NCBI GenBank assembly: GCA_021793235.1
Contig: JAJYTD010000014.1
Location: 1 to 64,000, forward strand
Direction of reading: 5' to 3'
DNA from: Actinomycetes bacterium
Lineage (GTDB): Bacteria; Actinomycetota; Actinomycetes; Streptosporangiales; Streptosporangiaceae
Length of the DNA: 64,000 bases
Made by a program: the position numbers and the translations under genes. Shown one piece after another: positions 49,587 to 55,740 of this stretch (position 1 is the first letter of the stretch; every line of letters begins with the position of its first letter). Below the pieces are notes generated by a model. That model worked only from the letters and a program-made list of their open reading frames with translations, had not been told where the DNA came from and did no database searches.

Positions 49587-49660
49587 CGGGGTGTAGCGCA
49601 GCTTGGCAGCGCGCTTCGTTCGGGACGAAGAGGTCGTGGGTTCAAATCCCGCCACCCCGA
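49587..49660 (+). tRNA. tRNA-Pro (CGG), site of integration
   Basis: Full cloverleaf: acceptor CGGGGTG / CACCCCG with discriminator A, D arm TAGCGCAGCTTGGCAGCGC, anticodon stem CTTCG / CGAAG around loop TTCGGGA (anticodon CGG), and T arm GTGGGTTCAAATCCCGC. CCA is not encoded. Bases 49617-49662 recur with three changes at 55026-55071. Confidence 0.96.
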
Positions 49661-49693
49661 CAGGTGACTAGGGGGCGTTCTCCCTGGTCAACG

Positions 49694-49927: not shown

Positions 49928-51136
49928 TCAGAGCAGCGGCCACCGCCGGCCGTCCGTCGGCGAACCGTGCCAAATGACGTCGCCGTCGGGCGCGGCCGTC
50001 AGTCCGAAGGAATCACGCGAGGGCTCCCCCAGCTCGACCCATTCGCGGTACAGCGAGAGCACTTCGTCGAACAGTCGCCGGTCGCCGCCCTGTTGCACGG
50101 TCAGGCATCCACCTTCCGACGTCGCGAAGGCCCATGACCCGTCCGATGCCAGCAGCCACCGCTCGGCGGGATAGTCCGGGTACCGCACGCCGAGTTCCTC
50201 GACATCGCTGCGCAGCGCGAGGAAGAACCGCAGATCCGGCGTGTCGAGCACCGTGTTCAGGTCGACGTCGACGGCCTCGGGCGTCGCCGCGTTCTCCTGT
50301 TCCTCGGTGATCTGTTGGTACAGGCGCTGCGCTGCGGGGGCGTGCTTGCCGCGCGTCGGCATGAAGCCCGCCGTGCGCGCGGAGAACCTGCCTTCCGCGG
50401 TGCCGTCGCGCACCGTCAGTCGAGCGAGCGCGCCACCACCGAGAGGCCGGGTCAGGTTGGCGAGGATCAGGCCGCCGTTCGACGTCTGCTCGATCCACGC
50501 GCGGGGGATCACGGGGAAGGACGCCGTCGCCATCACCCGCGTGTAGGGCGCGGTTTCGGCGAGGCCGAGGGCGCCGTCGAGAGCTGCCAGCGTCGGGGCG
50601 TATCCGAGCTCGCCGAGCGCCGCGCGCGCCTGGTCGACGAGGACTGGGTCGATGTCGATGCTCGTGACCGAGTTCGCGCCGACGCGCTCGCAGATCAGGG
50701 CCGCGTTGTACCCGGTCCCCGTCCCCACTTCGAGGACCCGGTCGCCCTCGCTCAGGGCGAGTTCTTCCAGCATGGTCGCCATGAGGGTCGGCTGCGAGCT
50801 CGTGCAGGTCATCTCGGTCGCCTTGACCTCGCCCTCGCGGGTGGCGGTCTCCCATGCCCGGTCGTCGCCGTCGAGCTGGGTGATGCAGATGTCGTCCTGG
50901 TAGACGTGCCGCAGCCATGCCGTCCGGTTCTCCGGCCGGGTTCCGTCCAAGGGGTGGTAGCGCCCGTCGTTGGCGGGGAAGGGGAGGAACACCCGGGGGA
51001 CGAAGGGGTGCCGCGGGACGGCGGTGAAGATCCGGTGCCAATCCGGATCGGTCACGGTGCCCTCGTCGCGCAGCTTGTCGGCGAGCGCGGCCCGAAGGGA
51101 TCGGGCTTCGTTGTCGTCGTTGGTGTAGTCAGTCAT
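49928..51136 (-). CDS. PIMT-like methyltransferase of ATP-grasp peptide systems (TgmC/ThfM type)
   Basis: A protein of 402 aa. The central domain is a protein-isoaspartate-methyltransferase-like SAM fold (SSQPTLMATMLEELALSEGDRVLEVGTGTGYNAALI). The N-terminus FTAVPRHPFVPRVFLP and the C-terminal half (RFFLALRSDVEELGVRYPDY, SDGSWAFATSEGGCLTVQQGG) match the methyltransferase of ATP-grasp peptide maturation systems. In fuscimiditide biosynthesis such an enzyme methylates an Asp, leading to an aspartimide. Its ATG overlaps the end of the ATP-grasp gene (ATGACTGA), so the two are translated together. Lies in the tRNA-Pro island. Confidence 0.88.
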   Translation of the reverse strand: MTDYTNDDNEARSLRAALADKLRDEGTVTDPDWHRIFTAVPRHPFVPRVFLPFPANDGRYHPLDGTRPENRTAWLRHVYQDDICITQLDGDDRAWETATREGEVKATEMTCTSSQPTLMATMLEELALSEGDRVLEVGTGTGYNAALICERVGANSVTSIDIDPVLVDQARAALGELGYAPTLAALDGALGLAETAPYTRVMATASFPVIPRAWIEQTSNGGLILANLTRPLGGGALARLTVRDGTAEGRFSARTAGFMPTRGKHAPAAQRLYQQITEEQENAATPEAVDVDLNTVLDTPDLRFFLALRSDVEELGVRYPDYPAERWLLASDGSWAFATSEGGCLTVQQGGDRRLFDEVLSLYREWVELGEPSRDSFGLTAAPDGDVIWHGSPTDGRRWPLL

Positions 51137-52202
51137 TCGGGCTCTTCTCCAGTGCGGTTGCCAAGGCACGGGCGATGTCAGGGGCGAGCTCCTTGATCCA
51201 TGCCCATTGGCCGTTCGGGTTGACTTCCAGGAACACCCACTCGCCGGACGGGGTGACGAGGAAGTCGAGCGCGCCGAAGCGCAGTCCGAGCTCGTTCATG
51301 AACGCCGTTACAGCGTTGCGCACCTGCGCCGATGGGGTGGTGACTTTGTAGGTCAGCGACTCGTAGTCGCTGCGCCAATCGAGGTCGGCGGCGGGTGAGT
51401 CGCTGTGAATCTCGGCGGTGAAGCACGCGCCGTCGACCACGGTCATCCGGATCGCGTGCGTGTGGGGTATCCACTCCTGCACCATGTGCGCGGTGAGGGA
51501 GATCCCGGGATCGTCAAGCTGTTCGGGCGTTACCTTCACCGTGTAGAGCAGCCGCTGCCGACCGCCCTCGATCACGCCGCGGGGTGAGAACGGTTTGTAG
51601 ATGACCTCGCCGACGGACTCGGCGAAGCTGCGGGCGTCCGCGGGCACATTGGTCACGATGGCCTGCGGGACGAGCATCCCCAGGGCCTTCGCCAACCGCA
51701 GTTGCAGGGGCTTGTACTCGGCGTTGGCGATCCGCGCGGGGTGGTTCAGCCACTGCGGGACGGCGGCGAGCGTGCCGAGGAAGCCGAGCTTCGCTTCGAC
51801 CGCGGCCCATTCCCGGTGAGCCTCGGTCATGTCGTCGGGGAAGGTGAACGGGAGGGGGCGGCGGTAGTAGATGCCGCTGATCCGGGACAGGTCGAGGGAG
51901 CGGTGGCCGACGCGAAGGGCGCCGGCCCATTCGGTGTCGAGCGTCGCCGTGAACTCGGTGTTCATGGGGAAGTCGGCGATGTCGAACCGAAGGACCGGCA
52001 CCTCGACGCCGTCGACCTCGACGAGCGAGATCTGACGGTCCGGGTCGAGGTAGGAACGCTCGGCTTCGGCGCGGGCTTCCGCGCCCGCATCGATTTCGGG
52101 CACGTCCAGGGCGAAGCGGGTGCCGAACGGGACGTTGCCCGCCGGCCGCTCCCGGACGGCCGTGGCGGCCGTTCCGATCGGGAAGGGTTCGTGGAACTGC
52201 AT
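51129..52202 (-). CDS. graspetide ATP-grasp ligase with precursor-like leader fused at its N-terminus
   Basis: A protein of 357 aa. From about residue 70 it matches graspetide maturases (VLRFDIADFPMNTEF, YYRRPLPFTFPDD, WLNHPARIANAEYKPLQL, VQEWIPHTHAIRM, FLEVNPNGQWAW), which make ester or amide side-chain links in peptides. The first 25-30 residues of a normal maturase are absent. In their place are about 65 residues resembling a SAV_5884/TgmA precursor leader: PFGTRFALDVPE and SYLDPDRQISLVEVDG. Family and leader assignments are from memory. AGAGGA lies six bases before ATG 52202; the frame extends upstream, without signs of coding. No separate precursor gene was found nearby. Confidence 0.82.
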   Translation of the reverse strand: MQFHEPFPIGTAATAVRERPAGNVPFGTRFALDVPEIDAGAEARAEAERSYLDPDRQISLVEVDGVEVPVLRFDIADFPMNTEFTATLDTEWAGALRVGHRSLDLSRISGIYYRRPLPFTFPDDMTEAHREWAAVEAKLGFLGTLAAVPQWLNHPARIANAEYKPLQLRLAKALGMLVPQAIVTNVPADARSFAESVGEVIYKPFSPRGVIEGGRQRLLYTVKVTPEQLDDPGISLTAHMVQEWIPHTHAIRMTVVDGACFTAEIHSDSPAADLDWRSDYESLTYKVTTPSAQVRNAVTAFMNELGLRFGALDFLVTPSGEWVFLEVNPNGQWAWIKELAPDIARALATALEKSPND

Positions 52203-52384
52203 TCGCATTCCTCTCGTGGGGGGTGGGAACGTGGGATTCGTTCCCCTGGAACCTCTCGGGCAAAGGGCTGTCAGGTGGTGCAGTCTCCCTTCGGTCGAGG
52301 ATGGGACCCTGTCGCCCGCCGGGCGCATCACAGCGAGCGACAGGGGTCGATGGTCGTGCGGCTCCCCGGACCGCACGACCGGCC

Positions 52385-52627
52385 TTAAGGGGCGCTGGGG
52401 CGACGACTCGCCCGAGACCGTTCCCAGGCTGACGGCAGCGGACCGCCGGCGACGATGGAGTCGTGCAGCTCCTGAAAAGCCATGTCGCCGCGCGCCATGC
52501 TGCGGCGCAGGTCCGCCTCGGTCAGCTCCTGCTCGTAGTGATCGCGGAGCGCCTCAGACACGATGTCGAACAAGGCGTCAGCGCGTTCCGTGCTGCTTGT
52601 CTCCGGAACGACGGGTTCCTCGTTCAT
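52385..52627 (-). CDS. small acidic protein, third gene of a coupled trio
   Basis: An 80-residue protein starting MNEEPVVPETSSTERADALFDIV. A helical middle (EALRDHYEQELTEADLRRSMARGDMAFQELHDSI) is followed by a short basic end. Its ATG overlaps the stop of the preceding gene by four bases (ATGA). No recognised domain. It ends 182 bases before the start of the ATP-grasp gene and could be in the same transcript. Confidence 0.65.
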   Translation of the reverse strand: MNEEPVVPETSSTERADALFDIVSEALRDHYEQELTEADLRRSMARGDMAFQELHDSIVAGGPLPSAWERSRASRRPSAP

Positions 52628-52941
52628 GCCCTCACCCCTGCTGCGAGTGCAGGCACCTGTCGCCGCGAAGGATGAGGCATAGGACCGGCATGGTCCGCTC
52701 GCGCTGTGTTCCGTCTCGGCGCGTATCGGCGTTCCAGTTCGAGGCTGTGTGCGTGCCGTTCAGCCTGCTGAATCACAGCAGGGACCTCATCGACCGAGGC
52801 AGGGGTGAGCAACCCAAGGGGCCACCCGCCACGGCGAGGCATCGCGTAGAGGTGGCCGTTCTCTTGCATCCGCCACACGAGCCAGCCGGGGGGAGCGGGC
52901 AGGTACTCGACCATCGGACGCTTGTCGCTGCCGACCGTCAT
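52624..52941 (-). CDS. unknown protein, second gene of a coupled trio
   Basis: A 105-residue protein starting MTVGSDKRPMVEYLPAPPGW, with LVWRMQENGHLYAMPRRGGWPLGLLTPASVDEVPAVIQQAERHAHSLELERR in the middle and a disordered, basic C-terminus. Start and stop overlap the neighbours by four bases each. I do not recognise it. The coupling shows that the three proteins are made together. Confidence 0.65.
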   Translation of the reverse strand: MTVGSDKRPMVEYLPAPPGWLVWRMQENGHLYAMPRRGGWPLGLLTPASVDEVPAVIQQAERHAHSLELERRYAPRRNTARADHAGPMPHPSRRQVPALAAGVRA

Positions 52942-53675: not shown

Positions 53676-54545
53676 ATGGCACGTCCGCAGTACTCCTCAC
53701 CCTCAGTACGGCGGCGTCGGCTCGGGGCGCAGCTACGGCGTCTGCGGGAAGACGCCGGCTATACGCTCGCCGAGACCTCGGATCGCCTCGGCTGGGCGAA
53801 GGCCAAGATCGGCAAGCTCGAAACCAGCGAGCTCAAGACCGTCAAGCCGACCGACCTCGACGCGCTGCTGACGCTCTACAACGTCACCGATGAGGCGACC
53901 CGCGCCGAGATGCATCAGCTCGCGAGGGATGCCAAGATCCGCGGTTGGTGGTGGAAGTATCGCGACGTCTTCGGTCGGGAACCGCTGCCCGACTTCGAGG
54001 CCGAGGCGTCGCTGATACGAACCTACGAAGTCGCCACCATCCCCGGTCTGCTACAGACTCCCGAGTACGCCGGGGCGGTGTTCCGAGGCGGGCGCTACAG
54101 CGCGCCGGAACAGATCCAACGACAGGTCGAAGCCCGCATGGAGCGCCGCGAGATCCTGCACAGGTTCGAGAATCCGCCCCGACTGTGCGCGGTGATCGAC
54201 GAGGCAGCACTGCGCCGACCGATGGGTAGCGAGCAGGTCATGCAGACGCAGTTCGAGTACCTGCTGCGGATCGGCCAACTGCCGAACATCGACATTCAGG
54301 TGTTGCCTTTCGAGGCCGGCGCACACGCGGCACTCGGCAACGCCTTCACCATCCTCGATTTCCCCGAACCCCTCGACCCGACGATCGTGTACACCGACAA
54401 CGTCGGATCGGGGCTGTTCGAGGAAGCACGCGACGAGGTCGACCGATACGTCGCAGTCTTCGGCGAGGTACAAGCTGCGGCACTGACAACGCAGCGGAGC
54501 GCCGAGTTCATCGAGGACATCCGGAAGCAAGAGAGCGAGTCATGA
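53676..54545 (+). CDS. XRE-type regulator with DUF5753 domain
   Basis: A protein of 289 aa. The HTH (LGAQLRRLREDAGYTLAETSDRLGWAKAKIGKLETSELK) is at 13-70, and the DUF5753 domain runs from about 100 to the end (EVATIPGLLQTPEYAGAVF, IQVLPFEAGAHAALGNAFTILDFPEP). Its last codon overlaps the DUF397 start (ATGA), the classic pair. Two palindromes upstream suggest autoregulation and control of the divergent genes. Confidence 0.92.
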   Translation: MARPQYSSPSVRRRRLGAQLRRLREDAGYTLAETSDRLGWAKAKIGKLETSELKTVKPTDLDALLTLYNVTDEATRAEMHQLARDAKIRGWWWKYRDVFGREPLPDFEAEASLIRTYEVATIPGLLQTPEYAGAVFRGGRYSAPEQIQRQVEARMERREILHRFENPPRLCAVIDEAALRRPMGSEQVMQTQFEYLLRIGQLPNIDIQVLPFEAGAHAALGNAFTILDFPEPLDPTIVYTDNVGSGLFEEARDEVDRYVAVFGEVQAAALTTQRSAEFIEDIRKQESES

Positions 54546-54727
54546 CGTCTACACCTGAGTTCCGTAAGAGCAGCTACAGCCAGAACAGCAACGCATGCGT
54601 CGAGGTTGCCGACCTTGACGGCACGCACCTGGTGCGCGACACACAGAACCGCGAGGCGGGTCACATTGGCTTCCCTGCGGCCGAGTGGCGCGCGTTCCTC
54701 GACGAGATCAAGGCGGGGCGACTCTAA
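54542..54727 (+). CDS. DUF397 protein
   Basis: A 61-residue protein with the family pattern FRKSSYSQNSNACVEVADLDGTHLVRDTQNREAGHIGFPAAEWRAFL. DUF397 proteins are partners or modulators of DUF5753 regulators. Translationally coupled to the regulator by a four-base overlap. Confidence 0.95.
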   Translation: MTSTPEFRKSSYSQNSNACVEVADLDGTHLVRDTQNREAGHIGFPAAEWRAFLDEIKAGRL

Positions 54728-55148: not shown

Positions 55149-55433
55149 TCAGTGCACATGCTCCGGAGCGGTGAGGGTTTTGGCGCGCGCCGCAGCGGCC
55201 TTCATCCGCCCGGCGTCCATGGCGTCGGCGACCTCGTCCAGGCGGTCAGGGAAGAGGTGACCGTAGGTGTCGAGCGTCATGGTCGCGGTCGCGTGGCCGA
55301 GCATCTGCTGAACCACCTTGACGTCCGCGCCGGCGGCGATCGCCAGGGACGCGGCGGTGTGCCGGAGCTTGTGCGGAGTCAGCCCGAGACCGTCCAGGCC
55401 CGCGTTCTTGCGCGCGTTGCTGAACTCGCGCAT
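55149..55433 (-). pseudogene. tyrosine integrase relic, C-terminal part
   Basis: About 95 residues of a tyrosine recombinase. LTPHKLRHTAASLAIAAGADVKVVQQMLGH holds the HxLRH and LGH motifs, and DTYGHLFPDRLDEVADAM the nucleophile Tyr. The N-terminal DNA-binding part and first Arg are missing. It lies next to the partial tRNA-Pro copy, its natural target. A hairpin (55439-55472) follows where the frame loses likeness. Confidence 0.88.
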
Positions 55434-55438
55434 GCGCA

Positions 55439-55472
55439 AAACGCTCGGCTGGGAAACCCCAGCCGAGCGTTT
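55439..55472. terminator. strong hairpin at the edge of the integrase relic
   Basis: AAACGCTCGGCTGGG pairs perfectly over 15 bases with CCCAGCCGAGCGTTT around AAACC-type loop. It is at the point where integrase likeness stops, so it may mark a deletion junction. Confidence 0.7.
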
Positions 55473-55563
55473 GGCTAAGCTCCTGGCCGTGGCCAGTTGA
55501 TCAGCAGTGTTGCGACGACCCCTCGAATTCGCCGAAGGCCGGGGGCTTCGTTGTTGAGTAGGG

Positions 55564-55740
55564 CTACAGGCGGCCGCGCCGAGCGTCGGCCAGGAACGCC
55601 GGCCACTCGGACGCCGGGAAGGCGAGGTGTCCCGCCTCAGGGTGCTTCGAGTCGCGCACAGCCGCACCCGCGGGCAGGTCGGCGACTCGACGCAGTCCTC
55701 CCCTTTGGCCGCGCTGTGCGAGGTGTTCCCCGAGCATTGA
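55564..55740 (-). pseudogene. DUF397 gene with a frameshift
   Basis: The C-terminal part VRDSKHPEAGHLAFPASEWPAFL is a typical DUF397 end. The N-terminal part CSGNTSHSAAKGEDCVE is in another frame. One base is missing between GTCGAG and TCGCC (near 55690), where the family has CVEVADL. Upstream the first frame meets TGA, so the beginning is also gone. No DUF5753 gene is next to it. Confidence 0.82.

Follow-up and report, generated by a model that had tools for sequence, protein, structure and literature searches.

The reverse-strand frame at 51129..52202 of the window, by which we mean the whole stretch of 64,000 nucleotides analysed here, is confirmed as a real fusion in which the leader of a graspetide precursor is joined in frame to an N-terminally truncated ATP-grasp maturase. 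It most likely belongs to a broken biosynthetic cluster rather than representing a new kind of enzyme. We consider it highly probable that a deletion at a short repeat broke a fuscimiditide-like (graspimiditide) cluster, and that this happened recently.

The fused frame and its neighbourhood

The fused frame encodes 357 amino acids and was delimited by its translation, NCBIfam models, a search of its own genome and alignment A3. Its leader part, residues 1-66 (52003..52202, reverse strand), is homologous by sequence matches to the separate precursors of four related loci (L005-L008). Identity to separate precursor leaders is 52-64%, and L005, L006, and L007 have precursors that begin in the same way, with MQFH.PFP. 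When the 96 amino acids given for the L006 precursor were searched against the window's own genome, precursor residues 1-69 matched window 52199-51984 (E 1.1e-15, 52% identity), and the sole other match in that genome had an E value of 1.0. The original prediction of a precursor-like leader of about 65 residues is thereby upheld. A VPFG recognition-type motif occupies leader residues 24-27 (52133-52122, reverse strand). As expected of a ThfA-type precursor, the leader is homologous to the precursors of related clusters; the core that should lie C-terminal to it is absent.

The precursor model TIGR04186 also matches the leader over residues 25-66 (positions 3-38 of 72, E 0.02); with 15 bits against a cut-off of 25, this match is weak alone, and the direct precursor match is stronger. 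Run on the own genome, TIGR04186 gave four matches below the cut-off (best E 0.098), the fused leader not being listed, and matches below the cut-off also appeared in 6 of 14 control genomes. Because the model is too weak for a leader of this type, the L006 precursor and core queries were relied on instead.

The maturase part (51132..51995, reverse strand) lacks about the first 27 residues, as judged from the start of the TIGR04187 profile match, alignment A3 and a control model of the L006 maturase; a leader running straight into a maturase without its first 25-30 residues had been proposed from the outset. Residues 62-352 match TIGR04187 at profile positions 19-312 of 312 (340.8 bits, E 7.2e-102, NCBIfam); the missing N-terminus keeps the score just below the curated cut-off, 350 bits. 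The stop of the fused frame overlaps the start of the neighbouring gene (ATGA), which encodes a PIMT-like O-methyltransferase of graspetide clusters (49928..51136, reverse strand), identified by TIGR04188 and by tblastn to relatives. It aligns with profile positions 1-360 of 363 at 354 bits, short of the cut-off of 380. This TIGR04188 or PCMT type of methyltransferase is called ThfM in the available literature, and its presence fits the aspartimide-forming, fuscimiditide-like system suggested earlier.

A Shine-Dalgarno-like AGAGGA (52209..52214, reverse strand), noted by sequence reading, stands six bases 5' of the ATG at 52202 and may be a carry-over from the precursor gene. Further upstream lies a small gene (52624..52941, reverse strand) with no Pfam match. 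Part of it, 52911-52802, resembles the DNA upstream of the L006 precursor, so that some gene order is common to both loci. The cluster is adjoined by a pair encoding an HTH_31-DUF5753 regulator and a DUF397 protein (53676-54727); the available text of PMC8939145 counts regulators of the DUF5753 type among the frequent neighbours of graspetide loci in actinobacteria. The methyltransferase is closely followed by a tRNA-Pro gene (49587-49661), and a fragment of the integrase family is found some 3 kb upstream of the fused gene (55149-55667). With these two elements at its flanks, the segment may be, or may have been, a mobile insertion.

Separate genes in relatives and the junction

Queried with the fused protein, 224 of the 341 genomes of the family gave matches. 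The genus that carries the fusion holds one genome only. In the four best whole-length relatives (L005-L008, 54-65% identity to the fused protein), a separate precursor gene lies just upstream of a full-length maturase, and the methyltransferase follows downstream. More widely, 24 of the 29 loci from L005 to L033 have a recognisable precursor next to the maturase; a script found 21 of these, and inspection by eye the other three (L027, L029, and L030). None was recognised there in L010, L012, L017, L023, and L025. Further searches found three relatives in a contig collection, two distant matches in phages and 71 plasmid records (best 47.1% identity); none of the 30 plasmid matches listed extends into residues 1-49.

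It might be argued that residues 1-66 are an ordinary N-terminal extension of the maturase family, since BLAST-type matches to intact relatives start at residue 49-53 in several cases. Such matches begin near residue 50 in ordinary searches because a DP...VP stretch of the leader aligns with a DP...AP stretch of the lost maturase start. Moreover, 26 of the 27 maturase starts compared (L014 and L017 were not among them) begin with a short strand, such as MTVLILT, that is missing from the window maturase. Together with the identity of residues 1-66 to precursor leaders, these starts rule the extension out, and we give it practically no credence. The exception among the 27, L025, has an unrelated start (MALVFGMLMG...) and methyltransferase matches on two strands; on its contig of 7.4 kb it is probably a damaged, rearranged locus. 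The maturase frame of L014 is interrupted by an early stop, and the same holds for L055 and L056, where a precursor frame persists upstream. In this family, damaged graspetide loci such as these three seem not to be rare.

The junction itself combines features of both genes. Precursor leaders end in Gly-x-x-Val-Pro-Met-Met, and the first helix of the maturase ends in Arg-x-x-Pro-Val-Leu-Arg; the window reads Gly-Val-Glu-Val-Pro-Val-Leu-Arg. In blastn comparisons with L005, L006, and L007, precursor similarity extends to window 51996, and maturase similarity starts at 52002 (L005, L007) or 52011 (L006). The two similarities thus overlap by the 7 bases GGTGCCG (51996..52002, reverse strand) in L005 and L007, and by 16 bases in L006. 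In L005, which has the ancestor-type sequence, GTGCCGAT is present at both deletion points. The distance from the Val-Pro codons to the x-Pro codons is 183, 180, 182, and 190 bp in L005, L006, L007, and L008, respectively. The values for L005 and L006, the two most similar full-length loci, are divisible by three, and a deletion at the repeat therefore preserves the frame. Some 180-190 bp are accordingly missing from the window, comprising the core peptide (in L006, the 31 residues that start with Met-Met), the precursor's stop codon, the spacer, and the maturase start. In L006 numbering, the missing maturase piece is 27 residues long, and in the AlphaFold2 model of the intact L006 protein the lost stretch forms strand 2-6 and helix 12-23.

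From these comparisons we propose the following course of events. The ancestral cluster would have begun with a precursor, made up of a leader of about 66 residues and a core of some 31, followed by an intact maturase and then by the PIMT-like methyltransferase. About 180-190 bp would then have been deleted between a GTGCCG-type repeat at the leader end (Val-Pro codons) and the matching Val-Pro or Ala-Pro codons of the maturase, so that the precursor lost its core and its stop and the maturase roughly its first 27 codons, along with the spacer between the two. The repeat would have caused this through slippage or recombination. Since the two genes probably shared a reading frame, their remains would have formed a single chimeric frame that is still read from the precursor start. 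Its product should have neither its substrate nor the first strand and helix of the pre-ATP-grasp domain, which most likely leaves the pathway dead.

An error of assembly or sequencing would give the same picture if the organism held intact, separate genes and the 180-190 bp had been lost in the draft. That the draft genome consists of 119 contigs and that the junction sits at a short repeat are consistent with such an artefact, which we nevertheless regard as improbable. The locus is internal to a contig of 96,011 bases, the genome (4,817,083 bases) has an estimated completeness of 99.97%, and usual assembly k-mers far exceed a repeat of 6 to 8 bases. In addition, the most similar locus, from another species and likewise known from a draft, has real-looking deletions of its own.

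That locus (L002, identical with L017; 4069-5669) comes from Nocardiopsis endophytica, and it is also broken, by different deletions. Its maturase match covers the C-terminal third only (84% over 134 codons), and its methyltransferase is the most similar one (73%). The 5' flank, similar to window 52280-52213, abuts sequence similar to window 51535 onward, which resumes at maturase codon ~222; nothing is left of the precursor, and the maturase has lost about two thirds of its length. The methyltransferase is without about 60 bp, two blocks overlapping by 6 bases. Searching its genome (G128) with the L006 precursor gave six matches, the best with E 0.031 in a 1199-aa frame, and no credible precursor among them. 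Because the deletion spans the junction, the locus is uninformative on the age of the fusion relative to the species split. It is like the window in the loss of the precursor and in having the most similar maturase fragment and methyltransferase, and differs from it in the larger deletion, in the damage to the methyltransferase and in that no leader was left to fuse.

Searches for a core and for further fusions

If the fused ligase had a substrate, a core might be encoded elsewhere, as the original prediction envisaged when it called for an orphan core search. Searched against the own genome with E values allowed up to 10, the 31-residue L006 core gave no match; a leaderless core with another sequence would go undetected in such a search. 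As a positive control, the same core was found in all four relatives searched (G127, G225, G224, and G134; E 1.9e-13 to 3.7e-8), with matches in three other genera at E 6.2e-11, 5.0e-10, and 3.7e-8. That the genome encodes another maturase or precursor at a different place was considered and rejected: there is a single maturase, the L006 precursor matched nothing beyond the fused frame except at an E value of 1.0, and the core search came back empty.

Profile A1, built from leader-maturase chimeras, was run on 341 genomes of the family and 394 of the class; alignments A2 and A4, which set precursors wrongly, were left out of model building. Matches were obtained in 177/341 family genomes and 65/394 class genomes, the class sample partly repeating family members. 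Among the A1 matches listed, which were the best-scoring ones for the family and a sample for the class, the window's own is the only fusion; A1 scored 13 (family) or 11 (class) candidates per genome, and rare or diverged fusions could be missed at that depth. None of the 16 candidates inspected in full frame is fused. All seven other listed family matches that start at or before model position 10 and reach position 110 (L040, L041, L045, L046, L052, L053, and L054) have a precursor frame that ends before the maturase or lies apart from it. Four class matches that start at model positions 12-16 and cross the junction (L042, L043, L044, and L051) are not fused either, no precursor being recognised in L044, and spot checks of L047 and L055-L058 gave the same result. 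We therefore discarded the idea that the fusion is a conserved architecture, there being no second case among the 16 inspected candidates or the matches listed.

These results bear on the two explanations first offered for the fusion. The deletion has held up: the genes are separate in close relatives, a repeat lies at the junction, no core was found in the genome, no second example was found among the candidates searched, and the nearest locus is broken. The other explanation, a natural ligase that a tethered leader switches on in cis and that cross-links leaderless peptides or proteins encoded elsewhere, has not fared well and appears very unlikely. It can point to the in-frame fusion, to the conserved leader and catalytic residues, and to a moderate model confidence at PFGTRF. 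Engineered leader-ligase fusions, moreover, are described as constitutively active on leaderless cores (PMC9826346, PMC13003496; available text). Against it, the fusion occurs once among the matches listed, the genome yields no core-like match while the control is positive, no candidate substrate was found, and the model gives low confidence to most of the leader. The maturase has also lost its first strand and helix, unlike the engineered versions as far as PMC9826346 describes them.

The state of the remaining protein was examined by conservation and by structure prediction. Of the 36 positions beyond the junction that do not vary among 25 other maturases (A3), 35 are retained in the window maturase; L005-L008 keep all or all but one of them. 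Compared with L002, dN/dS is 0.17 for the maturase fragment (134 codons) and 0.22 for the methyltransferase, rough values given synonymous distances of at least 0.55. The leader's dN to L005-L008, 0.26-0.37, is like the 0.32-0.41 found among L005-L007, these values also being rough. With no decay visible in the maturase, either little time has passed since the deletion or the chimera remains under constraint; we prefer a recent deletion because the substrate is gone.

In AlphaFold2 models, mean pLDDT is 81.0 for the fused protein versus 94.1 for the intact L006 maturase. The catalytic part is predicted with high confidence over most of its length, and pLDDT is below 50 at residues 1-19, 37-40, and 42-55, that is, in most of the leader. 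Residues 21-30, which hold PFGTRF, average 71 against 41 and 53 in the flanking blocks. The TM-score (target length) to 5ig9_D falls from 0.89 for L006 to 0.82 for the fused protein, and the alignment with MdnC (5ig9_H) leaves out the first eight MdnC residues, its range opening at residue 48 of the model and residue 9 of the chain.

The 18 residues LDPDRQISLVEVDGVEVP that close the leader can be aligned gap-free with FDPTSDHVIEELNRRGAP, the equally long L006 counterpart of the lost maturase stretch (A3; window 52020-51995). These last 18 residues share few conserved residues with the lost helix region (FDP...AP), and the gapless alignment is probably a coincidence. Taken with the confidence at PFGTRF, it gives a faint hint from the model that the leader could still dock. 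One may then imagine that the deletion itself made a working, self-activated ligase: the leader would dock in cis, DP...VP would replace the lost first helix, leaderless substrates would be cross-linked, and the methyltransferase would act on the products. We rate this, too, as very unlikely. The undecayed maturase, the in-frame fusion, the kept start and the confidently predicted catalytic part do speak against a dead cluster, and a recent deletion that broke the cluster remains the preferred reading.

Significance and comparison with known systems

As a broken cluster, the locus has little import beyond annotation, where gene callers and miners of graspetides would count a product-less cluster from its maturase and methyltransferase. 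It is also a clean case of how deletion at a short repeat can merge two genes of the same frame into one chimera, and Nocardiopsis endophytica offers a second copy of the locus that is broken in another way. An active chimera would amount to a natural leader-activated RiPP enzyme, the counterpart of engineered leader-fused ligases. No report of a natural leader-ligase fusion was met in the available text of the literature, including PMC13003496, PMC8939145, PMC13097080, PMC12291112, and PMC9826346, and one may still be in print.

The structures of MdnC (5ig9, with MdnA), AMdnB (7m4s), CdnC (7mgv), and PruB (9bou) share the fold of the fused protein over model residues ~50-357, with sequence matches from residue 55-68; they differ in that the fused leader has no counterpart in the enzyme chain. 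The closest designed analogues are LP-MvdD and LP-MvdC, in which, according to the available text of PMC9826346, a leader was placed on the ligase N-termini via a 30-residue linker. There, as in the window, a leader stands N-terminal to a graspetide ligase in one chain, whereas the window ligase is without about 27 residues and has no added linker.

The nearest natural system is that of fuscimiditide, ThfA/ThfB/ThfM (TIGR04186/04187/04188), as far as it is described in the available text of PMC13003496. ThfB depends on the leader, in which a conserved RPFG is the likely recognition sequence. The likeness lies in the maturase and PIMT-like methyltransferase families, in the gene order, and in the PFG motif of the leader (VPFG in the window against the conserved RPFG). 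It extends to the relatives' cores, in which some stretches are rich in Thr and others in Asp, as expected for Thr-Asp ester cross-links. The difference is that the window, without a separate precursor, a core or the maturase start, has the leader fused to the maturase.
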